DNA from: Isoetes taiwanensis
Lineage: Eukaryota > Streptophyta > Lycopodiopsida > Isoetales > Isoetaceae
Reading direction: 5' to 3'
NCBI GenBank assembly: GCA_021234155.1
Contig: JAJEKV010000138.1
Coordinates: 372,001-436,000, forward strand
Length of the DNA: 64,000 nt
Below, in pieces: positions 13,411 through 54,600 of this stretch. The notes under the pieces are model-generated. The model saw nothing but the letters and a program-made list of their open reading frames with translations. It searched no databases and had not been told where the DNA came from. The position numbers were made by a program, and so were the translations under genes. Numbering within the stretch: position 1 is the first letter of the stretch; every line of letters begins with the position of its first letter.

Positions 13411-13500
13411 AAATTTCTATAATGGCCACAATGTGGCAGCTACAGATCCAAAAACTCTGTTCTGTTCTGAGGACAAAAGTTATAATTGGTACAACCAAAC

Positions 13501-21479: not shown

Positions 21480-21985
21480 TTAATTTAAGTTTGAAGTCAC
21501 AAGTTATGTAATTTTTTATACACAAAAAAGTTATAAGGATTTAGGAGGGATTTAGGAGACTATAAATTAAAATTTTGAACTCTGATGATCTTAGTTTTGA
21601 TGGAAAGCTTAACTTCACTTACAATGCATTTGAAGGGTGCATTTTCATCTGGATCATCACAAAAAAAATTACGGTCATTCTCATAAAATCATCCCCTAAA
21701 ACCAGAGACGTTTGGATAATTTTAGCAAAACTTAAGTGTACTTTGAAGTTTTTCCTTATGTATTACTAGCATATATTATGCTGGAATTTCATAAGATGCT
21801 TAGGTTATCTCCTTCTGCAAAATATCAATACAGAAGGGCTCGAATGGATCTCTTGTTGAATCTCACGAGGGAACATTATGCATTAAAAAGGGTGAGCATT
21901 TGGGAGGTAATCAAGAGTTTCCACCCCTTTGTGTTCAATGACCGAATACATGTATTCCTGACTGCGTCTAATTGGAAACAAAAAG
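21480..21985. other. Non-coding stretch, no gene seen
   Basis: Short frames only; no recognisable domain. Confidence 0.4.
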
Positions 21986-22880: not shown

Positions 22881-23194
22881 TGTTATATGATAGTAATAAT
22901 TATCTATCATATTTAAATACGAATTTTAACATAATAATAAAAAAAACACGTTATTATCTTTTTCCTTTTTATTTGCTTTTTTCCATTTTCGTCACTTTTT
23001 CCCTCCTTTTCAATTTCGTGGCTCTCTCTGTTATGTTGCCAACAGGTCACAGTCAGGATTCAAAATTCTTTACAATTTAAGGAATATAAAAGTCCTTTTA
23101 ATCCCAAAACATCAATACAAGTAAAATATAGCATTAAAAATTTTAATTTGCAAAGACAGAATAATGTATTAAAATAAGAACTGCTACAGATTTG
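22881..23194. other. Spacer, no gene seen
   Basis: AT-rich sequence between the repeat and the hAT pseudogene; an 81-aa + strand frame has no domain. Confidence 0.4.
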
Positions 23195-25080
23195 TCAAGG
23201 TACAAGAGGATCACTTGTACCGTTGTAGATTTGGCGACTAGCACTCTTTTTCCATATTTCAATGCTATTACTATAATCAAAATTGCCACAATCATCAATA
23301 CCGTTTATGGTAACATGCAAGCGCGCGTCAAGCATCTTTGATTCCATCCTGTTTGAAAACTTATCTTTTATAGCAGTTCAATGGCTAAACACCGTCTCGG
23401 CAATGGCATTACTTGCACACTGAACAACGGCAACCTGTATCAATTTCAATACATTGCTGAAACTGTTAGCATGTACCTCATTGCATGCAATAGCAACTCC
23501 TATTTCTTCAAGTTTCATGTGCGTCCAATTAGCTTGAACATGTAATTTGAATTCAGCATATTCTCTTCGCAAAGCCTGCCCATCAATCAAAGGTGAAACA
23601 ATATCTTTCTTACCTCCAATCACTACCTTTTTTGACGTTCCATAAAAAGATATGAGCTCTTTCAATTCTTCCTCACCAAACCTTTTGCTACTGTTGGCAC
23701 TTTTTGGCATATTCACTGCAGAAAAAATTCCAAGATGTTTAAGAATAGAACTGTCTTCAAACCTGGCTTCCAAGCTCTTGCAAATAGCTGTTGCATAAGC
23801 TTTTTGTTTTTGAATAGCATCTTCTAAATCAGCCCCATTCACATCCCTTTCAATCTTGAATCCCTGATATTCATCCCCATAAATGCAGCTCCTTAACCCT
23901 TCCATCTTGCCAGCTGGAGGACCATAATATGGAATTATAGGAAATTGACTGCTATCCTCTTGGTATGCATTCAAATCAGGCTGAGGATCATGAAGATAGT
24001 ATTGTTTGATTGCATTTACTTGTCTGCTCACAATACTTTGCACACATGTTACATCAACTGATTTAGCTTGGAACACTTTACTCATTAAAGAGAGGCCACC
24101 AAGAATATCAGCAAGAAAATGTATTAAATAAATGAACTTGAAGTTTGTTATCTGCTTGAATATTTGAAATGACTCGAGCTCTGTATACCTTAAAACAGCT
24201 GGAAAGTCCTCGCATAGCTTGCTTATGGCATTATGTCTACTTAACCATCTTGTAGCATTGATGTGTTCAAGGCGTAACACACTACAAGCCATTTCCTCAA
24301 GCAATTCTTGGAACTTTTCTAACCGTTGGCTACTTCGAGAGAATTGAGATGCAATACCATTAACAATGCCATCAATTTCCAGTGCCCAATCCATACCATC
24401 AAGCTTTTGCAAAAGACGCAAGAACAGACTAAATTTGCTCTATGAGCAATAACAATGCAAAGAAGTTAAAATGGCACTCTCTTTTTCAATCGTCTTTGCA
24501 ACGCCATTCTTATGACCTGTCATGACAGAAGCACCATCTGATCCGAAACCTACCATCTTATACATATCCAAACCAGCCCCACATATATAATCAACAATCT
24601 GATTGCACAAAGTAGCTGCATTGGCATCCTGCACTCTCAACAAATCCAAGAAAGTCCGATGACATTCACCATGCTCAATATAAGAAACACACAACACAAT
24701 ATGTTTTTGAGTAGCAATATCAGTAGACTCATCAACATGGATACCAAAGAAGGGGCTAGCTTTAATATTCTTTAATAAAGTTTGGCGTATGCTCACACTA
24801 ATGCTCAAAATGAATTCCTTACATGCTTGATCATTCTGGTACATAGTTCTTGTGATAGATGGACATTCAGCAACTTGAAGTAACCTGATTATGTAAGCGA
24901 AATCCAACATGGATAGATTTCTTCTTGCCACTGTGTAAGCCGCCCGAAATAAGTTGAGAATTGCCCTGGTTTTTTTTGGCTTGGTTGGTGGAAAATTAGT
25001 TACATGGTGCAGCTTTCTCATAGTCACCACTAGCCGTTGGTCAAGAGCACAATCATGGGAATGGCATGTGGAACAGGTCA
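23195..25080 (-). pseudogene. hAT-family transposase (ZMYM/ZNF862-like, DUF4371) pseudogene
   Basis: Reverse-strand frames give a nearly complete hAT-type transposase body. The N-terminal half (from ~25,075) has a possible metal-binding CSTCHSHDC, then SPFFGIHVDESTDIATQKHI, where the DESTD block carries the first catalytic Asp, and YKMVGFGSDGASVMTGHKNG with the second (SDGASVMxG). At 24,430-24,480 a one-base change breaks the HCIAHR block. The second half continues with FSRSSQRLEKFQELLEE, HINATRWLSRHNAISKL and a C-terminal part equivalent to the hAT dimerisation region. That region is interrupted by a TGA at 23,378 but stays in frame to 23,195 (KFSNRMESKMLDARLHVTIN). hAT terminal repeats and an 8-bp duplication were not located. 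It lies downstream of the DUF760 pseudogene on the same strand. Confidence 0.85.
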
Positions 25081-25486
25081 GATAAAATCAATGAAATAGT
25101 GCTAATGAATATTGCTCATCCCCTGTCCACAAGTTTCCCAACCTGTTAGTTCTAAGTGGGCTCAGACCATCGTTAAATGCAGATAAAATATTCTACACCA
25201 GCCAGGTGAGGATGCTATGATCATTAAAATTGGCATAAAGTGTGCCGAAAATTAAACAGATGGTCCTTGCAATCCGCCATGTTCATGGATTCAGCAATGT
25301 GCATGTCAGCAAGCTCAGACATTTATGACTAGCCTAATGCTATAACATAATTAATCCATTAGCATTCAGACAATAGATGTAGCACATGCAATAATGCGCC
25401 ACAAGCTTTTCCATACACAGCATATACTTTAATATTAATCTTCTGACGACATGCAGGTATTTATGGTACAGAGGAAGTCATTAAAC
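25081..25486. other. Spacer between hAT and DUF760 remnants
   Basis: No coding signal is seen. A further DUF760 exon (the second DUF760 repeat) would be expected here or beyond if the gene were whole; none is recognisable. Confidence 0.4.
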
Positions 25487-26994
25487 CTGTAAATTCTGAG
25501 GTTCAAGAGATTTAAGATCTTTGGGCAGCTCGCTTTTCGTTTTGCCAGAGGCGACTTTCTCGCTTTGCTCTACTTCTTTTTCTAGCTCAACAATCTCGGT
25601 TTCTAATAGTTCAATGTATTCTCACGCATCCATTTCCTTTGGTCCTTCTTCTTTATGCCATCTTAATACATTCCCATTCACATGTGACTTCGAGAGCCCC
25701 TTTCATAATGGTCCCCGGTGTAAAGAGAGCAAGCAGCGGTGCTTATTGCAATGACAAGAGAAATATGACATCAGTTAACTCCTTAAAACAGCACATAAGT
25801 ACATGAAGCTGTTAAAACCACATCCTGGAGTGTATTGTTTGAAGTGAATTACATCCAAAAAGTAACTTCCTTCCCAGCTCTCTCCAAGGTCTCATGGCAA
25901 GTATAAGAAGATTTTAACAACATATAATAGTTATGACGCATGATTTGAAAATGAAGACTAATGGTAAGAAACAAAAGGTTTACCCTGCTTGTATTTGCAT
26001 CTGGCAATGCAACTTGATTGAGACTTTGTTGCAACTCAAGACGATATTGGGCATTCCTAAACATGTACCCAGTCATCATAACACTGTACATAAGCTGTGC
26101 AAGATTTTCGGCAACCTGATTCAAATACGGGTCCCAAATGTAAAAATTTTTATTAAGGAAACATATAATTTAAATACATCGACTATACCATTTTTTTTAT
26201 TTTCCATACAAACCAAAGAGGGTTGTACATGTAATGACCTTTCATCACATACAATGATTTCAGCAACCATTTCTATAATAGAAGTACAAAGTAAAACCGG
26301 ATCGTTACATCTTTGTTGTGATGGTTATCTCAAAAAACTGTGGAGGTAATGTCCCAAGCATATTTGTCACTGTTTGCCGCATTGCTTCAACCACCTGTAG
26401 AATAGCAGGCAACCAAGTGCAACAACAAAAATTATAATGACCTGCTGCAACCCATACAGAACTTCAAAAGGAAAAAACTATAAAAGCTTCAAAATGTCCG
26501 TTTCTAGAGCACTCTTATGCGTAAATCACCTGTGGAGGTGCCCGCTTTATAAATAGTTCCATAAATTCCGGTTGAACATTCCCTACATACTCCAACAGCA
26601 TTTCTCTTCGAGTTTTTGCCTATGACACATCATTGTTGCAATAAACATTCCTTAGAGATGTGCACCTATGTTTCAGAATTTCTGTCTTAATTCGTATTCA
26701 AATCATGATTAAAAATCCCAGTAGTATGTTCTCATTGCATGAAAAAAACATAGTGAAACCAAATTATTGATGAACTCATACAATTGATCTGCTGCCGGAT
26801 GGTGTACTCCCATTTCCTGAAGAGGCTCCATTATTGATAGTTCCATCGGAATAACATCTCCATTGTTGTAGATACTTTCTACTAATTGGGCTCAAAGTAT
26901 CATCTTTAAGTCGGAATTGGGATCTGAAAGAATAACATTTCAAAGCTATTCGAGAAGGTAAACTCCCACAGCGGCAACAATGGGCAGATGGCAA
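25487..26994 (-). pseudogene. DUF760 protein gene, five exons kept, inactivated
   Basis: Reverse strand, exons at 26,994-26,782 (N-terminus, Ser/Arg-rich like an organelle transit peptide), 26,619-26,530 (EYVGNVQPEFMELFIKRAPP), from 26,394 (VVEAMRQTVTNMLGTLPPQF), 26,115-25,984 (VAENLAQLMYSVMMTGYMFR) and 25,741-25,487 (EYIELLETEIVELEKEVEQS, KDLKSLEPQNLQ). The blocks match plant plastid DUF760 proteins of unknown biochemical role. Exons 1, 2, 4 and 5 have AG/GT borders with matching phase 0. Exon 3 lacks a donor: after EITITT the GT is replaced by AAGATG. Exon 5 has two in-frame stops (before KGLSKS and at DA*EYI). The second half of the protein is missing. The start codon is not identifiable; the frame is open upstream of 26,994 to about 27,035. 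Confidence 0.88.
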
Positions 26995-27039
26995 AGATGG
27001 AGAGGAAGAGGAGGGAAGGGCGGGTGTGGCGATGGCAGA

Positions 27040-28310
27040 TCTTTACCAGTTGACCGAGAGTTTACAGGAAATAGGAGGTTTGGAGCAGTCACCAGCATAT
27101 CCTAGGGATATTCTAGCATATACTTAGGATATGCCAAAAACCCACATAAACAAGGGTTTGCCCCCTAGGGGCAACCCAAAAATAGCAGTAAAAATTGCAC
27201 GGGTGCCAGCGGAGCAACATGGGAAGACCTTCCAGCTCCATAACCGCCCCTTCTGATTTCTAGGGTTTTGTCATAGTTGCAGTTGTTAGTTTTCTCTCAA
27301 AACATTCAAAGTATCTTGAGAACCCTAGTTATTGTTCTGCCCCATAGCCTATGTTGAATCAACCAAAGTAAACACTTGTTAGCGATTTGTTTTTTTACAA
27401 TTGCCCTAAAAAGCCCTAGTGAGAGGCTCGGTTCCCTTCCGGCAATTGCAAGTTCGCTTCAATCACTAACCTTTTTTTATCGTTCCAATGGCTAGGCGCT
27501 TTGGTGCATCATATTTAATGTTAGATTATCTTAGCGCTCAGATCTTGTGAAAATGAAACTAGAAGTTACTATCTTTTTTTTTTTACTTCCTTATTCTTCT
27601 TCAATTTTCTGTTTTAAGCTATTGCTATGTCAAGTTTTTTCTATACCATTGTTATCTTTGTATTTTGTCGGCTCTATTTTATATGCCCAGTTTTAAGCAG
27701 CTATAGCATATTCAACAAAACCTGAACTTATTCCGATTTAATAGACAAGGATGTCATTTTAAGATTACATATAATGTTTAATTCTTCTTTATTCTTATAA
27801 TTTTTATATGTTCTAATTATATAGCTTTATATTTAAATTAAAAATGCAATGGTTATACAATGGTAAAATTATTTTTTAGACTAATTTTTACTTGAATCTA
27901 TTTAGAATTAAACATTTCAAGAATATTAATTTTATTTTTTAGTGATTTGATAACAAATTTCAGGATAATTTGTAAATGAAATATAATGGTTTGATAAATG
28001 ATTGACAAAAAACTATATGAGAATTTTATAATTTACAAATTCTTAGCACTATAAAAAAATACTTTAACAAGAGTTTTAGATTGAAATTAATTAAATGCTA
28101 ATTTATTTTTTAATAGCAAATATTAGTTTATTATTGATGAAATAAAATATATTGAAAACCAATTAAAAAATAAACTATTCCTTTTTTTAATTAAAACATA
28201 AACATAATCATTTAATTTGTTTCATCTAGAACTTTCTTTAATCATTTTGAAAAAATAACGTTTTTATCATATAGAGTTCATCTTAGATAAAAATATAATT
28301 CTAAATGAAT
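27040..28310. other. Non-coding, very AT-rich in its right half
   Basis: About 27,540-28,310 is strongly AT-rich with many TTTAATT and AAATTA runs and no usable frames. The left half may hold the DUF760 promoter remnant, but no motif stands out. Confidence 0.5.
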
Positions 28311-30370
<2,060 letters not shown>

Positions 30371-38300: not shown

Positions 38301-40493
38301 TGGCACCCAATATAATTGTCCCTAGGATCCGTAAAAGTTGGTATCTGGGTTCCGAAACTCTTTAGACAGTTTATACGATCCGAAATTCAGAGTTGATCGT
38401 TGGCAGGATTAACCGAGGGACACAAAGTTACACACAGAGGACGTCCACCAAACAACTTTTGGCATCGTTAAATGGTTTTAACAAGGACCGCTTAGTCAAT
38501 GTCTTTAGGCGGACATTTAAAGACTATACACCAATAGGGTGTAAATATGAAGCAAAACAAGTTTTGCAGCTCATGGACTTATTATAATGACAAGGATGCA
38601 AAAATATTATATGCCTTCTACCCCTTGTTATTTAAGGTCATCAAGGCTCTCTAAAGAAAGAATGGATATTCAACATTATAGAAAGAAGAGAATATTCCAT
38701 TAATATATAGGAGTTAGGCGCCAGAGATCATGCATTTACATAATTTCTGAAGCAACAATCAATTTCAGAGGCAGATAGTAAATTTTTACATGTGGTGGAG
38801 AAATTGATATCCCGTAAAGGGGCATGCTAAGGGGTGATATATTTGCAAAGGTTTGGCCATATGCAAGGATATAAAACTTACAAGGGGTTTGCCAATGATC
38901 TATTAGAGTATGAAAATATTTTAATTTGGCAAGTGGGTCCCCTTGGTTGGAAAGCTAGAGTATTAATTTCTAGCATTCGGTTATGGGAATTTTGACACCA
39001 AAGATTGGGCATGAACATAACAATAACCAATTTTAGTGGCAAACAATAAAGTTTGACAAGTTTTGGAGATATTATTATCCCTTAAAAAAAGTGGGTCATG
39101 CTAGGAGGAATAATAAGTTGCGATGGTATTTGCCGGAAGCTAAAAACCTTGCATGCAAGGGTTTGACAAGTGACTATTGGGCCACAAAATATTTCGAAAT
39201 TGGCAAGTAGGGATTTCCTTATGGGAAGGCCACGTTTTGCCTTACCGTGTAGACATAAGGGGGATAATCGGTGGCTAAGCTCAGAGGTCTGGCACATCGC
39301 CCTGGCTAGGATAGCCAGACAGCTCGGGACAGGGACAGACAGATAACGCTTTTCCCAAGCTGAGTCTGGAGTAACTTCTGAAGGCGATTTTGGTTGACCT
39401 CAGTTGAGACACAGATGCACAGGTAAAAATTATTATTGCAAATGTTTATTTTTGACCTGTATGCAACACTTGAATGGATCTTATGATAGTTTGCCATGAG
39501 AAAATATAAGCATGCTTGGTGTTGCACGTGGTATTTTTCATATTTTTGGAGGTGATAAAACATCTAATTTCACTTGAAAGCTTTGCACAGATATAGAAAA
39601 TTTTTCTTGTTTGCAAGCCAACTCTTCTATTATTTTTGCGGTCACGAGACAATGGCATGTATTATTGTGCCAATCTTAACGGTGGGCATCTTTGGATTGG
39701 AGCTAAACACTAGTCATTGTAACAATGGTTTTCGAGGAACAACAAGGATTGGAAGGGATGGAGACTAACAACCGGGTTCTTTTCTACTTTGGTTTTCATA
39801 AAGCATCTGTTATGAAATCCAACAAATGGATTATTCTTTGTATTATTGCCAAATGATGGCAAAAAACATAGTTAATGATGAGGATTTTCTCAAACTATGT
39901 TTCAAGCTTGATAGAGCATTATGACGTTGATAATGGATGTGATGGTTATGCCGTACTCACATATGATTATTGAAGCATAATAGTCCCATCATTCTAGTGG
40001 TAGATTTTACCATTTCTGTTATGCTCATCTAGACATATTGGTCTAGATATAGTTATAGATGTTTTTGTTAAAATATTTTTCATTGTGGGTGAATAGACCA
40101 TCTATGTAGTAATTGTATAAGGGAGATATTTGAGCATGTAGACCACCAATATGATTTCTCTAATGTAGGAACTCCTATGACACCGATAGCAAGGGGGGGT
40201 ATTTTAAAAGCTATGACACCTGCATTCCTGTAGTTGACAACGGTTCTAACTCTTGTTTTACTATGGACGGTTGCAGGTAACAGCTTTCCCCACCTAGGAG
40301 TACATGTTCTATATTAGAAGATCATAATATGGTCGGTAAATTTGTATTCTTATATGCTCATTATGACTCAAGTAACAGATGAGTCTAAAATGCGTAGGAG
40401 TATAATTCAATGTTGCTATCTGTTGCTATCTGTTTCTTTCACTTTAGTTATTGGATCCCAGTTAATGGAAGGTTGCTTGAGATAAGCAAAATT
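38301..40493. other. Non-coding stretch left of the Penelope-like element
   Basis: Only short frames (60-85 aa) without domains. Sequence near 40,265-40,493 has weak likeness to 51,690-51,880 (GGAAGGTTGCTTG and AT-repeat context), too weak to call a repeat. Confidence 0.45.
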
Positions 40494-41717
40494 CATATAT
40501 ATACATACATATATATATAGGGCATCTGGTATGGCCTTTACTTAGATTTGGCAGTTCTTAAGCATAAGGCATTTACCCCTCCTTGGTTTGTTCAGCTGGA
40601 ACTTGGAAGCATTGTCTTGTGAATGTGAAACTTGTGACAAGTGCACTTTGGTTTAAAATACCCTGAGTAGTTTATTTTAGACCTGACCCATGAATATTAG
40701 GTGGACATATGGTTCAGTTACTCATTCATGAGCACAAGTGTTTAATTTTGACTAAATTGTGATCATTAGCATTAAACTTCTGGAATGACATTGTTTGTGA
40801 AACATTGATAAATAATGGGCATCAGTTATGATACATTAAGCAAATGGGGTTATCATTATGTTGTCTTTATACTAAACAGGTTAAAATTGCACATGCATAG
40901 GTTTTCTTATGATCTTGGTCTTAGCTAAACCCATATCATGCATCTACATTATATGGGAGCCACTCAAATCCCGCCCTATGGCTATCTTGGTTCTGGCACT
41001 ATGGCTATTATCTTAATTTCTCTTTATAGTAATTCCCCCTTATAATAATTCCCATTCCGCACGGAATTCATTATTTGTATAGTACAAGATCATATGCAGG
41101 GTAATACTAAATTATGAATGTTAATTTCACTCTAATATGGCTTTTATACTTTGGGACCAGTCTATTATAACTAGCCTTAACATTTATTTACGCTTATATA
41201 GCTTTTATATTTTGAAGACCAATTTTTTGAGAAATAGCCTTAGTATCTAACTCTTCTCATACTTGATTACCTTGGCATAAATGTGGCTTATAGTCTAACA
41301 GTTCGAGTACATCCATTACATATGTTGCCATAGAAACCATGGGTAACACTTTGTAACATCTATTAGTCCTTTATTAACCTCGGAATTTGCCTATGTGGGT
41401 TTTTTTGTGCTATTTTCGTAAAATCAACCCTAACGAAGGGCTCCAGCAAATGGCGCAACCCTAAAAGCTTTGCAGTATGGATCGTCACTGCCCGATGGCT
41501 TGACGGATCCCTAACAAACCTGGACGGTGACTGGAGGCTTCGACGTGGTAGGTACTATGGCATGATTGACATCATTTGGCGGCGCCAACTATTTTTCGAA
41601 TATTGTATGCGTGGATAGTTGTTACATAAATCTTCTTGTAAACATGATATGGCATCCCATAATCAGCAGGATTCGACTCCAAAACAGGATTAACTGATAA
41701 TTTTGTGTTTTGCAACC

Positions 41718-41726
41718 TATATAAAG
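41718..41726 (+). promoter_or_regulatory. TATA box of the Penelope-like gene (repeat 1)
   Basis: TATATAAAG lies 43 bp upstream of the exon 1 ATG, which would put transcription start at about 41,745-41,755, just before ATG 41,761. The same box is at 49,420 in repeat 2. Confidence 0.65.
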
Positions 41727-41735
41727 GCTCGTAAC

Positions 41736-41825
41736 ATGGATTTTCGTCTTATTTGGGAACATGAGCAAAGCAGGAAGACCAGAGGGCGCCCAAAACAAAG
41801 GGCAGACCAGGCAAAAATTGATTGA
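41736..41825 (+). CDS. Overlapping 29-aa frame with AT-hook-like core
   Basis: An ATG 25 bp upstream of exon 1 opens a different frame that overlaps exon 1 and encodes RKTRGRPKQR, an AT-hook-like core. If transcription starts as the TATA box suggests, this ATG would lie upstream of the mRNA, so it may be a coincidence of the shared GRP-coding DNA. It is kept in both repeats. Confidence 0.2.
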   Translation: MDFRLIWEHEQSRKTRGRPKQRADQAKID

Positions 41826-42108
41826 AGTGCTCAGGAAGCATGGGATTGAACATCCTAGTGTTCAACCAACTAAGGCCCAGCTGCAGGAATTGTGCAGAAT
41901 TAATAACATTGATCCAGGGAGGGATAGAAATGACAGCAATATTAAGAAGTTCATGCCAAGCTTACAGGGCTGCAGCAATGCTCAGAAGGAAATTGAGATA
42001 TCTGGCAGGGTGGATCTACCTGGTAATATTGAGATGGTGCCACTCTCACCAACTGATGAGGACGAATCTGATAATGACAAGATGGAGGAAGAAATCCAGC
42101 CTAACCAG
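41761..42108 (+). CDS. Penelope-like gene, exon 1: AT-hook-like and HeH/SAP-like domain
   Basis: Starts at ATG 41,761 (MSKAGRPEGAQNKGQTRQKL). Residues 5-12 are AT-hook-like (AGRPEGAQN); residues ~20-48 (LIEVLRKHGIEHPSVQPTKA, QLQELCRINN) fit a HeH/SAP-type helix-extended-helix DNA-binding fold; residues ~85-116 are acidic (SPTDEDESDNDKMEEEI). Left unspliced, the frame ends at a TGA at 42,121 (120 aa). A donor CAG|GTTCAG at 42,108/42,109 would instead join residue 116, phase 0, to the acceptor at 44,200. Nucleic-acid binding is inferred from the motif. The same exon in repeat 2 (49,463) encodes the identical 120 residues, which argues for recent selection or a recent origin. Confidence 0.72.
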
Positions 42109-44200
42109 GTTCAGCATGCTTGAATTTATTTTCATAACTTCCACTAATATTTGTTGAATATCTATCTGTTGCATATTTATTTGTGGCATATTGCATGTGA
42201 ATCTTGTGCTTTCTTGCTCTATGATTGGAATTCGTGTACTAGATAACTTGAATATTATGCCAGCTTATTTGAATTGTATATTACTTAGCTGCTATTCCCT
42301 GTTGCAGATCTGATCCTTGTTGCAGATCTGATCCTTGTTTGATGACTTTGTTGATCCATAAGCACATGTTTCTTTTAGTATTTGGGACCTATTCTTTGTT
42401 GCTGATCTAATCCCTTTATGACCTTGTAAATCCATAAGCACAAGTTTCTAATCATACTGTTTCCCTTAATCTCCATGCAGGCTGAAAATCCATGCTGAAT
42501 GGTAGTCTAATGTCATATTTGTAGCAGCTTTGTCCATAATCCTGTTGCCGCCTAGATGATATAGGATATGGTAGATGATTTGATCCTTTGGCTACCTCAA
42601 CCTGATGTACATATTAATTATGTTGATTTAACCTATTTGGCTGCATGGCACAACTATCTGCTTCCGGTGACCTAATGTTTTTAGCACAGGTATTTTGTAT
42701 AGGAGATTGAAGCATCACCTGGTCATAGATAAAACATGAATTGCTTCTGGCCCGTCCTCTGCTACAGATCTGATCCCGGGTGGTTAAACTAGGAAGTTCA
42801 AAATCATTTGAATTTAATCTGTATTGAATTCTCAGGGCCTCCATGACTGCTGAATATCCATGCAAAATTATCTATTAATGTCATAGGAGCACCCAAGTCT
42901 GAGTACTAACCCTAACTTAATTGCCTGAAAAATATGATCTGTGGTTGATGATCGGATTCTTAGTGATTTTAATCTGTTAAGCCAATTAATTAGGCTGTTA
43001 CAATTAGGCTGTTACAATTTGGTATAGGGTAGGACAGATTCATTTGACACTGTGCCTCTGAGCATAGACTGGTAAATCAAAATAAAGCCTGCTGTAAACT
43101 TAATTATACAGTTGTTTGGTAACATCTCTTATCTTATCTTATCTTGTTCCATTATGGGTAAGTATGGCATTTGGTAAACATGCCCTTAATTTCGATATGA
43201 GCAGAGCACAAATTTAAAAGGTTCCTTACTTGCTGAAATTAACCCTATTTTATAATTATGTTCTATAAATGATTTTAAATGTGTATGTATGGGTGAAGGG
43301 CTGAAAATGCCAAGGATGTTCTTTGCTTACCTGCTAGTCAATTTCACTATTACCCAGTAGGCTAATATGTGATCTGTTTGACTGCAGGTAACCGAACTTC
43401 CTTTTCCCATGTCTTTCATGGTTGAGTTTGGATGTTTACGAGCGGATAATATTATCTTTTACAGCTTTTGATATGACTTTGAATATTATAATGTTTTTAT
43501 GAACATGGTATGTTACTTGAAGTTCCTTTGTTCTATTGGAGGAATGCAATTAAGCAGGTTTCTATATCTGCTACCTTTTTGTTTCCCATTAAAGACATGC
43601 ACTTCAGTAAAGTATTATATTACTGCATATCTTATGTTTCATTCTTGTGGATTTTTGTAAGACTCTTGCTCATTTAAGAAATATTAAAGTTTGTCTTCTG
43701 ATTTGTTTGACCTGAAAATGCCTATTTAATATGTTTCTGTACCTCTGATCTCCTCTTGAATACGCTGATAAGTTTGAACTTTGCTTTTAGAGTGTCCTTT
43801 TATGCCTTGTAAAAATACTGGTTTTATGCTGTATGGTTTACAATTTATTGTTATTTCAAATGGTTTCCAAGGTTCCCCTTATGGTTTTTTCTGTACCATA
43901 AGGGACTGATAAGTCCTATAGTTCTTGGGTTTCTCAAGGCTATATGGATGGCAGGTCATTTCAAAAGGTTGTGGCTCTGGCCAGTCTATATATTTCCTAC
44001 TTCAGTTCACTAGTTATACTGGTGTGGGCCTTGGAAACCATTATTATTATTATTATTTTTTTTTTTTTTTTTTTTATGGTGTTTTCACCTTCTACATTTG
44101 CATGATTTACTTCCTGACTAAATCCTTATACTCTATGTGCATTCATAAATTTTGCAATTCTTTTAATTCTTCTAATTTATTGTTATTGAATTCTCTTTAG
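42109..44200 (+). other. Intron 1 of the Penelope-like gene (predicted)
   Basis: 2,092 bp from GTTCAG to TTGAATTCTCTTTAG. It joins exon 1 (phase 0) to an open frame that begins exactly at the acceptor. It includes an AT-rich interior, a TTGCAGATCTGATCC local duplication (about 42,304-42,338) and a T-tract at 44,056-44,077. The 3' border of direct repeat 1 (43,991) lies inside it. Confidence 0.6.
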
Positions 44201-45788
44201 GAGGGTTCTACCCTGAGCAGGCAGTCCTTTAGTATCCCTCATGGGAACTTGCAGCAAGCTGGTGATTCTAGACCGGGCTGGTACCCTGAACTCAGCAGAC
44301 TTGGTTATTCGGATGCTGGCATCACGGCACCCAACAAAGCTGTGCAAACTGTATTGTCCTGCATTTTTAAACCAGAGATACATCAGATGTTTATAGCCAA
44401 GGAATGCTCTCTTGTTGAAGGGGAAGTTTCTGTTATACTATTCTTTGGCCTCAACAATATGCTTGACCTTGTGTCTATCATCAATCAGGTAAACTATGAT
44501 CCTCCTATCTGCAAAGAACTTATTGACAATTCTTATAATATGCTTCCTGGAGCTCATATAATGGCTGATAAGAAGGACATGCGGGATTTATTATCTTTTG
44601 TCAAAGGCCTGTATGCCTTGGAGGAGGTTAATAGCATCAAACACTCCTTTCCCCCTAGGAACCTGAATTCTCAAACTCAGAAAAAACCAGTGTCCAAACC
44701 GGTCCTTTCAAACAGCCTATTCAATATCAGTTTGTTGGAAGAGGCTGAACAACAGCCTGAAGTTGAACCTGTTACAGTTGATGTTGATATTACTGAGGAT
44801 GAAAGAATTTCATCTGAGCTGAAAGCATACAATATAAATGAGCTCAATCTTTTTAACTGTGGCGGATTTCCTATAATGTCCAATAGAAATGTGGAGGCTC
44901 ATGGTGAGCAGTTTCAGCAAGCTTTATGGAGAAGCAACAATCTCGGTGTAATTGCTCCTATTAACCTGGATTCTTGGATTAAGCTTGCCAATCTTACTGC
45001 TGATGAAGTCAAGAAAGCAAAGACTGATGCTCTTTCCTTTACTAAGCGTATCAGACGCATTTTTCCAGAACTTCCTTTCAACTATTTCCAATTCCTGGAA
45101 CGAAAATGCAATGTTGGCACAGGTTCATATATTGGTCAGAAAGGGCATATGGCCAAGACATCTGAAACCAGGATTGACTTTTATCTTAAACGTATATGGA
45201 GAACATACTGCCCTTTCCTTAAATGCAACTGTGATACCATGACAGATGTGAAGTGCCCGGATAATATCATGTGGTTTGACCATGTGGTTTGGTTCATGAT
45301 GAACAATCTGGAGGTAATATGGCCGAATGACTGCATTCAGAAGAGATATGCTTTACTGTCTTCCTTTCTATCCACTGAACCCATCAGAGGTGTGGTTCTG
45401 GCCTATGTAGGATACCTGTCAGTCAGGGAACTGATGTTTGAGATGACCCATAAATGGGCCATCAATCCCAATTGTAATCTGAAGGAGCTCTTTGGAAATT
45501 CCAAAACTGTTGACCTGATTGAGAAGACTATTAAATCTATGGAATTTCTCAAAGAACATTTGCATGGTAACTACAGTTATGGGTATGCTACTTCGGGCAA
45601 GAAAAGATTTCAGGCAGCAAACACACCACCAAGTGGCATTCTTAGGCCACCAAAACTGCTAAAAGCTCCAGCAAACAACGTCCCGGCAATTACAAGATTG
45701 GATGACAAATTTACTACAACAAGAACTGATGCACAGACAAAAAATCCTGGTGTAGCGCTTGGTACCAGAATTAATAAAGTCAAATTTG
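44201..45788 (+). CDS. Penelope-like gene, exon 2: large unknown region
   Basis: The frame is open from the acceptor at 44,200 (EGSTLSRQSFSIPHGNLQQA) to a TGA at 45,791, about 530 codons. There is no ATG near its start, which fits an internal exon. No known domain is recognised: it has a hydrophobic stretch GEVSVILFFGLNNMLDLVSI, an acidic linker (EEAEQQPEVEPVTVDVDITE), a Cys-containing block FLKCNCDTMTDVKCPDNIMW that might bind metal, and a basic Pro-rich end (PPSGILRPPKLLKAP). A donor G|GTTGAG at 45,788/45,789 (phase 1) removes the stop. In other Penelope-like elements the region before the RT is also poorly conserved. Confidence 0.65.
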
Positions 45789-46013
45789 GTTGAGGTATTA
45801 TTCCCCTACCTTCTATTCTTTTTTAATTATCAATCTGCAATTATGCAATTTTCTGTTCCTTATTTTTAGCAGTATACTCTTTGTCTATCTATTGTATGAT
45901 TGTTTGTTTATGCCTGACTGTATCGGATTGTGCATTTAATGCATTTAGTTCCATATAATTGGCCACAGAGCCTTAAAACTTTACGGGATTTTTCCCTTTC
46001 TCTCTATTAATAG
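45789..46013 (+). other. Intron 2 of the Penelope-like gene (predicted)
   Basis: 225 bp, GTTGAG...CTCTCTATTAATAG, T-rich towards the acceptor. It restores a phase-1 join (G|AG = Glu) between exon 2 and exon 3. The donor is not an ideal GTAAGT. Confidence 0.55.
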
Positions 46014-48112
46014 AGTACCCACTGTACAAACAGATCAAATGGAAGGAGTTATCTTGTAAGATTGATGGACAGTGGAAATTAAAGACAATTAGGGAGGAGA
46101 AAAAGTCTAAATATGTGCATTTCACATATTTTTCCAAGACTATGGACAAAATTGATTTCTGTGGAACATTTAAGACTGTTCTATGTAGACACCTTGGTGA
46201 ATTAGGGAACGAAGTATGGGAAAACACGACCTTTGGATGGAGATATGTCACTAACCTGAAGGATTTATTCTACAAACCAAAAGTGGTGTTTGCTAATATT
46301 GAGCAGCCAAAATGCCCTTGTGCAAACCCTAATCTAAGTAAATTCATTGACCCATCAACTGGACATGTCCGCACTACTGATTTGAGAATCATACATAATA
46401 AGGCACTTCGAAAGTGGTTCTCTTTGGGACTGAACTACATTCCTGATTATCCATTTTCTCTACAGCAATTTAAATATGAGATGGCCCAGACCATTGAACA
46501 ATTCTTTAATGTTCATCGTTTTGACCTCGGTGGTGATGATAGCATCTCTGTTCAAGAGTGTAAAAAAGCTCTCAGAAAAGAAACTAAATGGTTGGCCAAG
46601 TATTTCATTGAAAAGAATTTGACCACGCACAAGAAATTCATGATCCATGATGATTTGGTCATCAAAAATATGGATTGGATTATTAACAATCTATATACTG
46701 CTGGGGTCGATAAGGCAGCAAATAATCCTTCTTTTATTTGCCCTTGGCACATTAGACAAGAGGCCACTAAGAGATTACAGAGTGAGGATTTCAGAAAATG
46801 TGAAATCAGTAAAGATGACCTCATAATCCAGATTCAGGATGACCTGCAGAACATGTTAGGAGATGGACACATCTCCTCTCTTGAACTTCCATACCTTCTT
46901 GGTATATTTAAAGCGCATAAGAACGAGTATAGATGGATCACAAATGCGCACGATAGCATGTTTTCAGTTACAGCATCTTTAGTTGCCACTGGGCTCAATC
47001 TAATCCTTGATACGTGGACAATCATTTGTCATGATAAATGTGCAGCAGCTAACCTATTTTTAAAGGACAAGATCAGAGCAGCATGGATCATCAATTCTGT
47101 CTATGATATTGCTTGTAATCTCCCGGCCAAAATTGATAATGTTTTTGTGGCGGATATAGCCAAATGTTATGAAAATATACCATTAGATGGCAATGAAGGC
47201 ATATGCAGTGTTATGGAAAATATTATTAATTTGACATGGAAGTACAAAAAACAGATGCATCAAGGGTATGAACTCTGGTATACAATATCAGAGAAATGGA
47301 ACATTAATATGGTCTGGAAGGATAAGGTACCTGACGGAAATAAGTGGCATAAAATGGACAGAGATCTTTTTGTTAATCTCAACAAATGGCTCTTATGTAA
47401 CTGCTACTTGTCAATGTACAATGGGATCTGGAAATAGATCAAAGGAATCCCTATGGGGTTTGCATCTAGCCCTGGATGGTGCAATCTATATCTAGCCTGG
47501 TTCGAGCTTAAATTTATCTTGGAACTCATTAGCAAAGGTAAATTACAGATAGCAGCCGCCTTCAGAAATACCTTTAGATATATTGATGATCTGGCTGGAA
47601 TTAATAATCCATATATCAGAATCTATCTCGGTCTACAAAAGGATGATCCAAATGAATCCTTTATATATAATCTGAAGCACCTAGCAATTAAAGATGAAAC
47701 CACCTATTGGGTCAGCAAAACAATAGGAAGAAAAATTGATTTTCTCAATATGACTATTGAGGTTCTTGCCCCTCACCTTGGTACTTATCTTACCTACAGA
47801 TACGACAAGAGAAATAAACTGCCATTTAAAGTTTCTAAATTTGTGCATGCCAGCAGTTGTCGTCCATATTTGATGGCTTGTAATATTATTATATCACAGA
47901 TCCAACCCTACCTTTATGTGCACAGTAGTCCAATTAGGGCTGCCTTTGATCTGGTGCAGTTAATGGAATACTTTGTCAGTCTAGGATTCCAGAAGAAAGA
48001 TGTTTGGCATAAAATCTCCAGGATACTACATATGGAAACTTTTCCTGGACTCAGGTTTGATATCAGTATGCTAGTGGCTGAACTGCACAAATACAAGTAC
48101 CATTTCATATAA
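46014..48112 (+). pseudogene. Penelope-like gene, exon 3: reverse transcriptase with one in-frame TAG
   Basis: The frame is open from the acceptor at 46,013 to TAA/stop at 48,112 except for TAG at 47,435. Order of motifs: Cys pair KCPCANPNLSKF; LRKWFSLGLNYIPDYPFS, the Penelope-specific block before RT; LPYLLGIFKAHKNEYRWITN; motif A FVADIAKCYENIPL (Asp at 47,153); motif B GIPMGFASSPGWCNLYLAWF; motif C FRYIDDLAG (YIDD 47,579-47,590); FLNMTIEV; TYLTYRYDKRNKLPF and a conserved-looking thumb (IQPYLYVHSSPIRAAFDLVQ). YxNIP, the FLxxTI block and the tail order identify Penelope-like RTs rather than LTR or LINE RTs. The catalytic Asps are intact. The stop sits four codons before motif B; CAG-to-TAG is the simplest origin. 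No GIY-YIG follows; only ~100 bp separate the stop from repeat 2. Confidence 0.85.
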
Positions 48113-48125
48113 TTTTGATATAGTT

Positions 48126-48199
48126 GGCAGGAGGGTCCCTACATAGGGGCCCTCCAGCCCTTATGTTGCATGGGAACCCTCCTGCCTTCCGGCAGGAGG
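48126..48199 (+). other. Double hairpin between RT stop and repeat 2
   Basis: GGCAGGAGGGTCCC (48,126-48,139) can pair with GGGAACCCTCCTGCC (48,172-48,186). Alternatively GGAGGGTCCCTA/TAGGGGCCCTCC (48,130-48,155) forms an inner hairpin with a 2-nt loop, while CCTCCTGCC-TTCC-GGCAGGAGG (48,178-48,199) forms a perfect 9-bp hairpin with a tetraloop. The GC-rich structure is exceptional in this AT-rich region and sits where a 3'-end RT recognition or transcription-end signal would be expected. Confidence 0.75.
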
Positions 48200-49419
48200 T
48201 AGGAATATATATATATATATAGGGCATCTGGTATGGCCTTTACTTAGATTTGGCAGTTCTTAAGCATAAGGCATTTACCCCTCCTTGGTTTGTTCAGCTG
48301 GAACTTGGAAGCATTGTCTTGTGAATGTGAAACTTGTGACAAGTGCACTTTGGTTTAAAATACCCTGAGTAGTTTATTTTAGACCTGACCCATGAATATT
48401 AGGTGGACATATGGTTCAGTTACTCATTCATGAGCACAAGTGTTTAATTTTGACTAAATTGTGATCATTAGCATTAAACTTCTGAAATGACATTGTTTGT
48501 GAAACATTGATAAATAATGGGCATCAGTTATGATACATTAAGCAAATGGGGTTATCATTATGTTGTCTTTATACTAAACAGGTTAAAATTGCACATGCAT
48601 AGGTTTTCTTATGATCTTGGTCTTAGCTAAACCCATATCATGCATCTACATTATATGGGAGCCACTCAAATCCCGCCCTATGGCTATCTTGGTTCTGGCA
48701 CTATGGCTATTATCTTAATTTCTCTTTATAGTAATTCCCCCTTATAATAATTCCCATTCCGCACGGAATTCATTATTTGTATAGTACAAGATCATATGCA
48801 GGGTAATACTAAATTATGAATGTTAATTTCACTCTAATATGGCTTTTATACTTTGGGACCAGTCTATTATAACTAGCCTTAACATTTATTTACGCTTATA
48901 TAGCTTTTATATTTTGAAGACCAATTTTTTGAGAAATAGCCTTAGTATCTAACTCTTCTCATACAACAGTTACCTTGGCATAAATGTGGCTTATAGTCTA
49001 ACAGTTCGAGTACATCCATTACATATGTTGCCATAGAAACCATGGGTAACACTTTGTAACATCTATTAGTCCTTTATTAACCTCGGAATTTGCCTATGTG
49101 GGTTTTTTTGTGCTATTTTCGTAAAATCAACCCTAACGAAGGGCTCCAGCAAATGGCGCAACCCTAAAAGCTTTGCAGTATGGATCGTCACTGCCCGATG
49201 GCTTGACGGATCCCTAACAAACCTGGACGGTGACTGGAGGCTTCGACGTGGTAGGTACTATGGCATGATTCAGCATCACTGGCAGCGCCAACTATTTTCT
49301 GAATATTGTACAGTGGATAGTTGTTACATAAATCTTCTTGTAAACATGATATGGCATCCCATAATCAGCAGGATTCGACTCCAAAACAGGATTAACTGAT
49401 AATTTTGTGTTTTGCAACC

Positions 49420-49428
49420 TATATAAAG
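49420..49428 (+). promoter_or_regulatory. TATA box in repeat 2
   Basis: Same TATATAAAG as at 41,718. Any transcript from here would run out of the element to the right. Confidence 0.6.
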
Positions 49429-49462
49429 GCTCGTAACATGGATTTTCGTCTTATTTGGGAAC

Positions 49463-49825
49463 ATGAGCAAAGCAGGAAGACCAGAGGGCGCCCAAAACAA
49501 AGGGCAGACCAGGCAAAAATTGATTGAAGTGCTTAGGAAGCATGGGATTGAACATCCTAGTGTTCAACCAACTAAGGCCCAGCTGCAGGAATTGTGCAGA
49601 ATTAATAACATTGATCCAGGGAGGGATAGAAATGACAGCAATATTAAGAAGTTCATGCCAAGCTTACAGGGCTGCAGCAATGCTCAGAAGGAAATTGAGA
49701 TATCTGGCAGGGTGGATCTACCTGGTAATATTGAGATGGTGCCACTCTCACCAACTGATGAGGACGAATCTGATAATGACAAGATGGAGGAAGAAATCCA
49801 GCCTAACCAGGTTCAGCATGCTTGA
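49463..49825 (+). CDS. Exon 1 copy in repeat 2 (AT-hook/HeH protein)
   Basis: Encodes the same 120 residues as 41,761-42,123; one synonymous base differs (CTC to CTT in Leu). With no exon 2 after it, only the 120-residue unspliced form could be made from this copy. The donor site is at 49,810/49,811. Confidence 0.65.
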   Translation: MSKAGRPEGAQNKGQTRQKLIEVLRKHGIEHPSVQPTKAQLQELCRINNIDPGRDRNDSNIKKFMPSLQGCSNAQKEIEISGRVDLPGNIEMVPLSPTDEDESDNDKMEEEIQPNQVQHA

Positions 49826-51692
49826 ATTTATTTTCATAACTTCCACTAATATTTGTTGAATATCTATCTGTTGCATATTTATTTGTGGCATATTGCATGT
49901 GAATCTTGTGCTTTCTTGCTCTATGATTGGAATTCGTGTACTAGATAACTTGAATATTATGCCAGCTTATTTGAATTGTATATTACTTAGCTGCTATTCC
50001 CTGTTGCAGATCGATCCTTGTTGCAGATCTGATCCTTGTTTGATGACTTTGTTGATCCATAAGCACATGTTTCTTTTAGTATTTGGGACCTATTCTTTGT
50101 TGCTGATCTAATCCCTTTATGACCTTGTAAATCCATAAGCACAAGTTTCTAATCATACTGTTTCCCTTAATCTCCATGCAGGCTGAAAATCCATGCTGAA
50201 TGGTAGTCTAATGTCATATTTGTAGCAGCTTTGTCCATAATCCTGTTGCCGCCTAGATGATATAGGATATGGTAGATGATTTGATCCTTTGGCTACCTCA
50301 ACCTGATGTACATATTAATTATGTTGATTTAACCTATTTGGCTGCATGGCACAACTATCTGCTTCCGGTGACCTAATGTTTTTAGCACAGGTATTTTGTA
50401 TAGGAGATTGAAGCATCACCTGGTCATAGATAAAACATGAATTGCTTCTGGCCCGTCCTCTGCTACAGATCTGATCCCGGGTGGTTAAACTAGGAAGTTC
50501 AAAATCATTTGAATTTAATCTGTATTGAATTCTCAGGGCCTCCATGACTGCTGAATATCCATGCAAAATTATCTATTAATGTCATAGGAGCACCCAAGTC
50601 TGAGTACTAACCCTAACTTAATTGCCTGAAAAATAATAATTGTGGTTGATGATCGGATTCTTAGTGATTTTAATCTGTTAAGCCAATTAATTAGGCTGTT
50701 ACAATTAGGCTGTTACAATTTGGTATAGGGTAGGACAGATTCATTTGACACTGTGCCTCTGAGCATAGACTGGTAAATCAAAATAAAGCCTGCTGTAAAC
50801 TTAATTATCTGATTGTTTGGTAACATCTCTTATCTTATCTTATCTTGTTCCATTATGGGTAAGTATGGCATTTGGTAAACATGCCCTTAATTTCGATATG
50901 AGCAGAGCACAAATTTAAAAGGTTCCTTACTTGCTGAAATTAACCCTATTTTATAATTATGTTCTATAAATGATTTTAAATGTGTATGTATGGGTGAAGG
51001 GCTGAAAATGCCAAGGATGTTCTTTGCTTACCTGCTAGTCAATTTCACTATTACCCAGTAGGCTAATATGTGATCTGTTTGACTGCAGGTAACCGAACTT
51101 CCTTTTCCCATGTCTTTCATGGTTGAGTTTGGATGTTTACGAGCGGATAATATTATCTTTTACAGCTTTTGATATGACTTTGAATATTATAATGTTTTTA
51201 TGAACATGGTATGTTACTTGAAGTTCCTTTGTTCTATTGGAGGAATGCAATTAAGCAGGTTTCTATATCTGCTACCTTTTTGTTTCCCATTAAAGACATG
51301 CACTTCAGTAAAGTATTATATTACTGCATATCTTATGTTTCATTCTTGTGGATTTTTGTAAGACTCTTGCTCATTTAAGAAATATTAAAGTTTGTCTTCT
51401 GATTTGTTTGACCTGAAAATGCCTATTTAATATGTTTCTGTACCTCTGATCTCCTCTTGAATACGCTGATAAGTTTGAACTTTGCTTTTAGAGTGTCCTT
51501 TTATGCCTTGTAAAAATACTGGTTTTATGCTGTATGGTTTACAATTTATTGTTATTTCAAATGGTTTCCAAGGTTCCCCTTATGGTTTTTTCTGTACCAT
51601 AAGGGACTGATAAGTCCTATAGTTCTTGGGTTTCTCAAGGCTATATGGATGGCAGGTCATTTCAAAAGGTTGTGGCTCTGGCCAGTCTATAT

Positions 51693-54600
51693 CAGGTAGT
51701 ACCAGCTTTTCCCACTTGGATGCAGGATTAATAATATTTAAGACTAGCCTGGAACATCATCATGCAACAAATATGGGTTATAATGAATTATTTTTAAGCT
51801 ACAAATTCCTAGTTACTATATTTTTGGCATTTATCAAGAATATAGATCCTGTAAAAGGAAGGTTGCTTGTAAAAGCATAATATATATATACATATATATA
51901 TACAAGTTCTTGTACTATCAATGGGATAAAATAAAGGGAAGATTACGAAAATTCTCCTATCATGTAGCTTCTTTCCTACTTCTTTTGGCACATGAAGTTT
52001 TTTAATCGATCCTACGGTGCATGTTCTAATGTGTGCATGTTTCAGTTTTCTAAGAATTTACGAAGATTTTCACTTTTTATGAGATTTCCTTATTCTAGAA
52101 TTTAAATGCTCTTAAATTTTACGAGATTCCATTAGATTCTCGTAGATTCTCTTATATTTTCTGAGATTTCCTTAGATTTTATCAAAATTCCTTTAGATTC
52201 CCTTAACTTCAATGAAGATACCTTTAGATTTTCTAAGATTACCTTACATTCGATTCTCTCAGATTTTACGAAGATTCCCTCCCTTACTATTCTAGTTGAT
52301 CAGTCAAAACTCATCAATTTGCTCCCACGACATTTTAGAACATCCAGCAAAAAGTTTACGTCTTATGAAGATTCCATTAGATTCCAACAAATAACTACTA
52401 TCATTAGGAACTTTTCAATATTTAGTATTCTTAGCAACTTCTATTTCTCGATCAAAGGCGAATCAAGAACTTAGATTCTCCAATATTTTATAAAAACTCA
52501 CTTATATTTTGTGGCATTCTATTAGAATGCCATAGATTTCAATAAGAAGTTACTATTTTTAAGAAATTTTCAACTTATTCATTTTGGTTAACGAGTCAAA
52601 GCTCATTCTTAAAGTTGGATTCGTTGTACATATATTTTTTTAGAAGTATCGACATATGGTTACGAAAGTTGGAGTATTGGTTGCATTAATTGCATTAGAT
52701 GTGTAATGTTATGTTGTGCACCATTATTACAAATAACATGAGATTAATAATTTATTTGTTGGGGTGTAAGTTATAAGATACAAAGTGTCAAGGTTGGACA
52801 ATTCTTAATTCTCGAAGGCACTAGTAGAGAAGAATGTTAAATGTTACGTAATACCCAAACATGTTATATGTTTTTATTTTGCAACGTTTTCTAGGATACA
52901 TGAAGTTCAAGTTATTTTCATTGATTTCTAATTAGAATAGGCGTCATAAGAAAGGTTGTATGTTCTCTCTTTTAAGGTCCCTAATTTTAAGGTTCTAGTC
53001 TTTGGCCCTAATTTTTGGTTCTTGATTTACATCCATGATGATTTTGCTGCAACTTTTGATAATCAATTCCGATAATTAGTCTAGGTAGGTATCCAAAGAT
53101 AGATTCTCTCCTTTCTTTATTGTCCACTATATGATATAAGTAGTAAGTTCCTTAGGACATGTCCCTAGACTTAGGTCCCCAAGAAGTTTCACAATATGAT
53201 GGTGACACCATCATTTTAAGTTTTCTAGTGCCCATGGTTATAGATGCTATGGCTTAGACACAAATGGCTTCACTGGCCATGTGTTAAAAAATGACTTGTT
53301 TGTATGGCTCGAAAGCCATGCCTTGGACACAATCATGTCTTGAGAGAGGAATTATATCTTTCATGACATTTTTGAGCCATCGATATTTGCATTCTACATT
53401 TTTACCCACCCAGTATTTGCATTCTCCATTTCTACCCACCCAATATTTCCTGGAGTACATGCAGCGATGGTGACTGTATTTTTAATCAATGTGAAGTTTG
53501 GAGACTTATGTCACCATGACAGCGACTGTATTTTTAGTCAATGTGAAGTTCGGAGACTTATGTTACCACAAAGACTTATGTTACTACATTAATACACACT
53601 TCTATTTTGATTGTGGTCCCAATACTAGATCCGAGTGGGTATTCAAGCATTAACTTGAACTTCACATGAATTACATTTTAATACCTTCACTTTAAGATAA
53701 CACACAAAATATGTTAGGCTCAAACACCGTATGGTGCCAAAGGGTGCAAACAAAAGTCAAATTGAAGCTAGAGATACAAACAATATTTGTGTCAAGAAAT
53801 ATGTTAGGCCCAAACCCCTATGGTCCCAAGGGGTATGAACAAAAGTCCATACAAAAGATTGAAGCATGAGATCGAAACAATACTTGGTAGAACAAACATG
53901 CAAAATAATCAAAACGGTTTGACATCACATTTTTCCAACCAAAGAGATTCTGGCCAGTAAAATTGTGGGTTGAGGCAGCAAGAACCCAAATATATGCTAG
54001 CAACATAGCAATCCCATTCGCAGATCACACAATCTAATCCACCGGCATTCGCATTGCTGAAAGTAGGTATTTTTCAGTTGACAACGAGATGTAGAAAAGA
54101 TTTTGCCAACCTTTACAGCCAAGCACTCAAAATTGTTTATCCCAAGCACTTTATATGTTTCACTGCTTCGACTTATAAACACAAACAAAAGATGCAAAAA
54201 TAACAATGGAAAAGGACAAAGATGAAGAGACTTGGACCTATTTCTACTCGTTCAGTTGATTGACCTAATCAAAACTGGCCATGCTTGATTCACCATAAAA
54301 CTGACCATGCAAAAGCAAAAGTTTCCTCAGCATTGGACAAAGTAATTGTGCTAAAAAAAAAGTTAATGACAACGATAAAGCCTCTTTTCCTCCCCTCTAT
54401 TCTACTCATTTAGTTGACTTGCTGCTTCTGCAACTATGGCACTTCAGCATTATGCAAAAGTTTCATTTAAGTAAAATGAAGCCCCAGATAAAGAACAACT
54501 TAAAGGCCATTGAGATCTCCCACATACTGCAAGGGCAGTGGAAATGTCTACCATCTTCCTTATTTGACGTAAATATGAGCCATTAACTACACTTTGATTT

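Follow-up and report, generated by a model that had tools for sequence, protein, structure and literature searches.

Gene Structure, Repeat Ends and an Intronic Hairpin

How a retroelement that keeps its introns, and in which no endonuclease is recognisable, starts its copying and reaches its targets is the question raised by positions 40505-51692 (plus strand) of a 64,000-nucleotide stretch of the Isoetes taiwanensis genome, hereafter the window, where direct repeats flank a three-exon gene with a reverse transcriptase (RT) exon. The comparison of this copy with its relatives in the same genome makes it fairly probable that we are dealing with a family of the Penelope-like element (PLE) type in a lycophyte, whose copying would start internally, beside a hairpin located in intron 1, and whose intron 1 would be kept thereby.

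The two direct repeats, or pseudo-long terminal repeats (pLTRs), extend from 40505 to 43991 and from 48207 to 51692 on the plus strand, measure 3.49 kb each, and are 99.3% identical over 3,491 aligned columns. A sequence-only reading of the window had noticed direct repeats around a multi-exon retroelement gene and had called the element young and nearly intact; the repeats are real and their identity bears out its youth, but the RT frame (45977-48112) contains a single in-frame TAG at 47435-47437, and the copy is thus not nearly intact. The 5' repeat begins in an (AT)n tract, ends in ..CAGTCTATAT, and contains exon 1 as well as the greater part of intron 1, while the 3' repeat finishes at the 3' terminus of the element and holds a second copy of exon 1 (49463-49810). 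All three exons and both introns lie on the plus strand. Exon 1 (41761-42108; 116 aa) starts with the ATG at 41761 and ends at a CAG/GT donor, and the predicted intron 1 (42109-44200), with GT/AG ends, runs from within the 5' repeat to beyond its end. Exon 2 (44201-45788; about 529 aa, with an uncertain 3' end) lies in an open frame of 530 codons at 44201-45793, which agrees with the exon of about 530 codons and no recognised family that had been read ahead of the RT. It is followed by the predicted intron 2 (45789-46013) and by exon 3, the RT exon (46014-48112; about 698 codons).

Both splice junctions had been proposed earlier. The ends of the first are conserved, with the CAG/GT donor in 11 of 11 exon-1 sequences and a ..AG/GAR acceptor at all 15 exon-2 sequences (L013 and L032 being near-identical), and intron 1 is well supported by these sequence comparisons; by the same ends, introns appear to be retained in the genomic copies, as is typical of PLEs. 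As for the second, an intron is required in the window copy by the reading frame and the stops, but its ends are uncertain: the acceptor may be at 46033, as an alternative ..CAG/ 20 bases downstream of the earlier-proposed one is present in most of 18 copies. A ribosomal frameshift may take the place of intron 2 in copies with overlapping frames (e.g., L015).

Like the 5' repeat, the 3' repeat starts in (AT)n, and both end at one fixed point, which reads ..CTAGT(N)TATATA in most copies. A search for this repeat end listed 40 places, and 151 bases were examined at all of them. At 26 places, the repeat end runs into the internal CCCGATTTC/hairpin-1 block, i.e., CCC(N)ATTT followed by the hairpin described below, and at the other 14 it joins other DNA (a split made by eye; a script had called 14 of the 26 internal and 12 "other"). 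TA runs are enriched at the 3' junction: in the 60 bases past the TA tail of the element itself, 11 of the 14 junctions show a TA run that reaches 10 bp or more, as against 6 of the 54 TA runs of 7 bp or more elsewhere in the window, counted on the two strands. Among the seven repeat-bearing elements, six extend the TA by at least 8 bases and the window copy by none, one of the seven (C1053) being also among the 14 junctions. The 5' side does not allow a TA target to be judged because the repeat itself begins with (AT)n.

Elsewhere in the window (21983-29290), there is a pair of 0.94-kb direct repeats, 95.8% identical and about 6.3 kb apart. The 3' copy of the pair also runs out into 99 bp of (TA)n, and the interval between the copies holds a minus-strand DUF4371 frame; this is possibly another element with a like target.

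The hairpin located in intron 1 (hairpin 1; 44008-44024, plus strand) consists of a covarying 7-bp stem with a 3-nt loop and starts 17 bases beyond the repeat end. In an alignment of 21 sequences, which are related and were picked by a pattern that held the stem letters for three of them (L025, L029, L030), 92.1% of the cells are paired vs. 82.1% in shuffles, and 14 cells are changed on both sides vs. 4.9 in shuffles; one pair is AU in 11 sequences, UA in 8 and GC in 1. The internal ends L060, L061, L069, and L072 failed the search pattern and are outside this alignment.

A Proposed Model of Copying and Insertion

The cycle that we propose would run as follows. The repeat would drive a tandem RNA, which after splicing would yield a single protein of about 1,340 aa. 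This protein would bind the unspliced RNA at hairpin 1 and at a second structure located past the RT stop (RNA 2, see below), and a TA repeat that had been nicked or broken would offer a 3' end able to pair with the UAUAUA beside hairpin 1 and so to prime cDNA synthesis internally. The RT would copy leftward through the 3' repeat, the gene and the 5' repeat up to the (AT)n tract, where the cDNA end would be joined to the opposite flank of the interrupted TA repeat. The target might be cut by exon 2 acting as a new nuclease, or it might be a fragile TA repeat that needs no element-coded cut. Because the start signal would be intronic, the spliced mRNA would be no template and intron 1 would persist. 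An internal start would account for the fixed 3' end, the 1.45-unit insertions, the TA flanks, and the kept intron 1.

There is a precedent in a PLE of Anolis, for which the portions of PMC11167929 available to us describe an RT that starts internally, at a stem-loop 111-118 bp into the open reading frame (ORF), after AT-rich cleavage, and propose a tandem RNA. With respect to that element, we infer that two features are new here, namely, the location of the stem-loop in an intron and the agreement of the start site, UAUAUA, with the target. If true, a hairpin of 17 bases would give a concrete answer to the question of intron retention.

A number of observations weigh against this interpretation. 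No long direct repeat was found at the expected places in four of the ten large copies considered below (C412, C919, C963, and C1030). In the window copy, the RT is broken by its in-frame stop, and the 3' junction reads CAGGTAG instead of TA. Three of the 14 junctions are below the 10-bp TA mark (9 in L064 and L076, and 4 in L068), and L077 and L083 have a common flank, so the junctions are not all independent. As for hairpin 1, two of the five covariation measures are not above the shuffles, and it could have another role in the intron. In the Anolis PLE, according to the same portions of PMC11167929, the start site has no homology with the DNA that is cut, whereas we propose a UAUAUA/TA match. 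Concerning the class of the enzyme, PDB searches with the RT, including a profile search, matched no RT, and a group II maturase was matched below the cut-off in two of the three RT copies run against NCBIfam.

The Family in the Genome and Selection on Its Exons

The further copies that the sequence-only reading proposed to look for in the host genome make up a large family. In the searched assembly (1,658,258,908 bases in 1,110 contigs, with the window within contig C950, G000:C950), the RT-exon query, which ends before the position of the TAG of the window copy, gave at least 88 scored places among 3,920 first-look candidates, and the exon-2 query gave at least 82 among 3,548. The matched stretch is stop-free, as counted by eye, in 60 of the 88 RT places and in 74 of the 82 exon-2 places, and for at least 53 of the 82 listed exon-2 places, the list of RT places includes one no more than 4 kb away. 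Ten large copies with wide flanks, picked among the stop-free places, were examined, and eight more were taken without exon 1. The ten large copies all match the RT and exon 2, although C963 matches only exon-2 residues 284-529, with another element upstream; exon 1 is found upstream in nine of them, and in C963 only downstream. The exon order therefore recurs and is more than chance. Long direct repeats are present in the window copy and in six of the ten large copies, which, plus the arrays described below, amounts to the pLTR and (partial) tandem-unit organisation of PLEs.

In all comparisons, the proportion of nonsynonymous differences (pN) is lower than that of synonymous differences (pS), i.e., in 55 of 55 exon-1 pairs (11 sequences, each element being represented by whichever of its exon-1 copies is better preserved), 91 of 91 exon-2 pairs (14 sequences, L032 being omitted as near-identical to L013), and 136 of 136 RT pairs (17 sequences, without the window copy, whose RT is broken). 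The median pN/pS ratios, 0.17 for exon 1, 0.07 for exon 2, and 0.10 for the RT, come from only 5, 3, and 2 pairs, respectively, because the synonymous sites are near saturation. By these sequence comparisons, all three exons are under purifying selection.

For five of the ten large copies, the nearer contig end is more than 1 Mb away, and therefore the confinement to chromosome ends that is a trait of endonuclease-deficient PLEs is not seen in this family. The 3' flanks were TA-rich and not telomeric by eye, telomeric repeats not having been searched for. The insertion sites thus differ from those of telomeric endonuclease-deficient PLEs.

A term search of the main text of two Isoetes genome papers (PMC8566536 and PMC10541799) did not find the word "Penelope," and the titles and opening lines of the abstracts of the literature naming both Penelope and Isoetes hold nothing on this family. 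No relatives were detected in viral contigs by exon-2 or RT alignments, nor in prokaryote contigs by RT alignment, the only one used there.

Reverse Transcriptase and Class Assignment

Exon 3 encodes a CxC, a motif A (ADIAKCYENIP), a motif B (GIPMGF), and a YIDD; the motifs GLNYIP, KCYENIP, YIDD, and FLNMTI, on which the RT had been recognised earlier, were found again by reading. RVT_1 is weakly matched in 17 of 17 RT relatives (best E 2.2e-05), with a score of 19.6 bits vs. a cut-off of 29.6 in the first RT member. It is likely that the family belongs to the PLEs, an assignment based on its architecture and on RT motifs that we take to be of the Penelope type, and the earlier view of a PLE-like architecture in a plant, with kept introns and pLTR-like repeats, is supported. 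A pair of flanking repeats that are nearly identical and have fixed ends would also suit an LTR retrotransposon whose coding content is unusual, but neither integrase, protease, RNase H, nor RVT_2 was found in Pfam scans of the exons, and exon 1 lies inside the repeat, the introns are kept, and the units occur in tandem arrays, all of which makes an LTR element highly improbable.

The two cysteines of the CxC (C100 and C102), some 100 residues from the start of the RT exon, are invariant in 17 of 17 sequences. A CxC between the N-terminal part and the RT is presumably a mark of PLEs with an N-terminal endonuclease (EN), such as Chlamys and Naiad, which Craig and colleagues reportedly described in 2021 as having a CxC before the RT, a microsatellite bias, no hammerhead, and a presence in spike mosses. 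On that description, the family resembles Chlamys/Naiad in the CxC, in its association with microsatellites, and in the lack of a hammerhead in the window element, where an Rfam cmscan of positions 39500-52700 gave no hammerhead up to E=10. These likenesses would be explained if exon 2 concealed a strongly diverged N-terminal GIY-YIG, so that the family would be a Chlamys-like N-terminal-EN PLE. Unlike in Chlamys/Naiad, no N-terminal GIY-YIG is detectable here: PF01541 was matched in none of the 15 exon-2 copies, and a YIG-like triplet of exon 2 is not conserved, varying among YIG, FIG, FVG, and YVG. We therefore regard a concealed GIY-YIG as improbable.

At E<=5, GIY-YIG was absent from all 15 exon-2 copies and all 17 RT copies, in searches where most matches with an E higher than about 0.1 are removed by the filters of HMMER, and the earlier statement that no GIY-YIG is recognisable stands. 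Neither the N-terminal domain of Chlamys/Naiad in exon 2 nor, in the RT exons, the C-terminal domain of canonical PLEs with an endonuclease (EN+) was thus detected. By the tests run on these sequences, the family is not a canonical EN+ PLE, nor an N-terminal-EN PLE.

The family is nevertheless like canonical PLEs (Penelope/Poseidon; Anolis PAc, PMC11167929; Adineta Pen, PMC3846280), as described in the parts of these papers available to us, in its pLTR-ORF-pLTR organisation and tandem units, in having the 5' part of the ORF within the pLTR and the element end near a stem-loop, and in its AT-rich targets and tolerated introns. It differs from them in that no C-terminal GIY-YIG was found, in the large exon 2 of no known family, in a stem-loop that is intronic and not within the ORF, and in the hammerhead, not found in the window element.

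Endonuclease-deficient PLEs include Coprina. With Athena and other members of this group, including those of Selaginella and conifers (PMC9033089, PMC12477314, and PMC3846280, in the sections available to us), the family shares an RT without detectable endonuclease, though exon 2 could yet be one, and in the same sections such elements are reported from another lycophyte. Unlike them, it is found at internal TA repeats and not at chromosome ends. It is possible, if on balance somewhat doubtful, that the family has no endonuclease whatsoever and is primed at TA repeats through their breakage or cruciform extrusion, exons 1 and 2 only binding DNA or RNA. This would fit with the endonuclease-deficient PLEs published for Selaginella and conifers (available part of PMC9033089) and with the fact that GIY-YIG was not found in the copies scanned and that, of the 140 genomic matches listed (from 150 scored of 263 candidates), none comes to within 85 kb of any of the 88 RT places in the list. 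On the other hand, such PLEs are largely limited to chromosome ends, as stated in the available part of PMC3846280, whereas half of the large copies lie far from either contig end.

GIY-YIG frames of recurring length (often about 115-154 aa) are numerous in the genome, with 140 places listed, and could belong to other mobile elements.

The Exon 1 and Exon 2 Proteins

Exon 2 shows conserved blocks in 15 sequences, including an invariant GQKGHMAK and a Cys cluster, YCP..C.C..KC..DNI.W.D. No match over the cut-off was obtained in Pfam or in NCBIfam (the latter with the window copy only), and no PDB match below E=0.7. DUF6917 was matched in 4 of 15 members (best E=0.0025, 18 bits vs. a cut-off of 27) and was taken as noise.

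A degenerate sister family was found in antisense in copy L023 (L023:2113-5984, minus strand). Its RT is about 35% identical along 339 aa, and it also has an RG-rich tail and a domain resembling exon 2. One piece of the sister matches the RT profile with an E of 3.2e-80; with the exon-2 profile the E values are 1.5e-13 and 7.2e-10, the best exon-2 decoy among 236 frames from the window reaching 0.63. Since exon 2 is matched in this sister far beyond the decoys, exon 2 and the RT appear to be old partners.

Exon 2 might be imagined as an endonuclease of a new type, standing in for GIY-YIG, with TA repeats as its cleavage sites. Its constraint is about equal to that of the RT, it has invariant His/Lys/Glu/Arg and Cys residues, it is common to the sister family, and the termini of the element are enriched for TA runs. 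Nevertheless, no nuclease family was matched, GQKGHMAK is missing from the matched stretches of the sister, though the sister copy is frame-broken there, and the structure predicted from the window sequence alone gave no usable fold (mean predicted local distance difference test score, pLDDT, of 34); we consider a new endonuclease unlikely, though worth keeping in mind. A still wider proposal would be a PLE lineage that combines an intronic RT-start signal, in which splicing parts messenger from template and intron retention is obligatory, with a new N-terminal domain, possibly an endonuclease, that replaces GIY-YIG and steers insertion into TA repeats. Taken as a whole, this proposal is speculative and rather unlikely to hold in full. 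Found together with this RT in two families that are far apart, the exon-2 domain may represent a novel class of proteins that choose or cut the target.

Exon 1 had been described as carrying AT-hook and HeH motifs that might tether the RT to DNA in place of an endonuclease. Its GRPEG..NKG is AT-hook-like by reading, and it has an acidic C-terminus and a weak HeH/SAP-like segment; HeH in the window exon 1 gave E=0.03 and 14.5 bits vs. a cut-off of 28.9, and weak SAP-type matches occurred in three of six relatives scanned, none above the curated cut-off. The HeH/SAP assignment is therefore weak. This part may substitute for an endonuclease, but the exon-1 domain matches are weak, and the large conserved part of no known family is exon 2.

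RNA 2 and Non-autonomous Units

The family, its TA-repeat association, two conserved RNA structures, and non-autonomous units are beyond what the sequence-only reading could see. The second structure, RNA 2 (48122-48202, plus strand), lies between the RT stop and the 3' repeat and has a 7-bp outer stem, a 9-bp inner stem, and a possible loop-tail pseudoknot. In 15 sequences, 97.4% of the cells are paired and six pairs have two-sided changes vs. 2.8 in shuffles; no two-sided change was seen in the pseudoknot pairs. The search pattern fixed GGCA/TGCC and GGAGG, and thus the invariance is partly due to selection of the sequences, though all 15 copies read matched. This region holds three mutually complementary segments and hence two folds, both with some covariation. 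Since the competing hairpin is also supported (97.2% paired, three pairs with two-sided change), RNA 2 may be bistable. Rfam gave nothing near the gathering score in the element and around RNA 2, and an HDV-like (hepatitis delta virus) topology was ruled out by hand, the strand order being unfit.

Three stretches (L048, L049, and L050) contain RNA 2 together with stretches resembling the repeat end and the hairpin-1 region of the full copies, and neither exon 2 nor the RT was found in them by tblastn at E<=0.01. L049 and L050 exceed one unit (4.25 and 4.5 kb), while L048 has 3.1 kb only. In C223 (279164-304590), seven repeat ends about 4.2 kb apart form an apparently non-autonomous array, one stretch of which is L049. 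A degenerate exon-1 start persists in the non-autonomous units. The retention of the repeat end and of both RNA signals in these units fits a role of the latter as cis signals, and the non-autonomous tandem units are natural minimal substrates.

Other Features of the Window

Broken pieces of a Copia-type polyprotein (SH3_retrovirus, RVT_2) are located at 6006-8364 of the window. A piece of Endomembrane protein 70 (EMP70, E 1.2e-25) lies at 12713-13174 on the minus strand, beside a tandem repeat of about 217 bp at 13397-14051.

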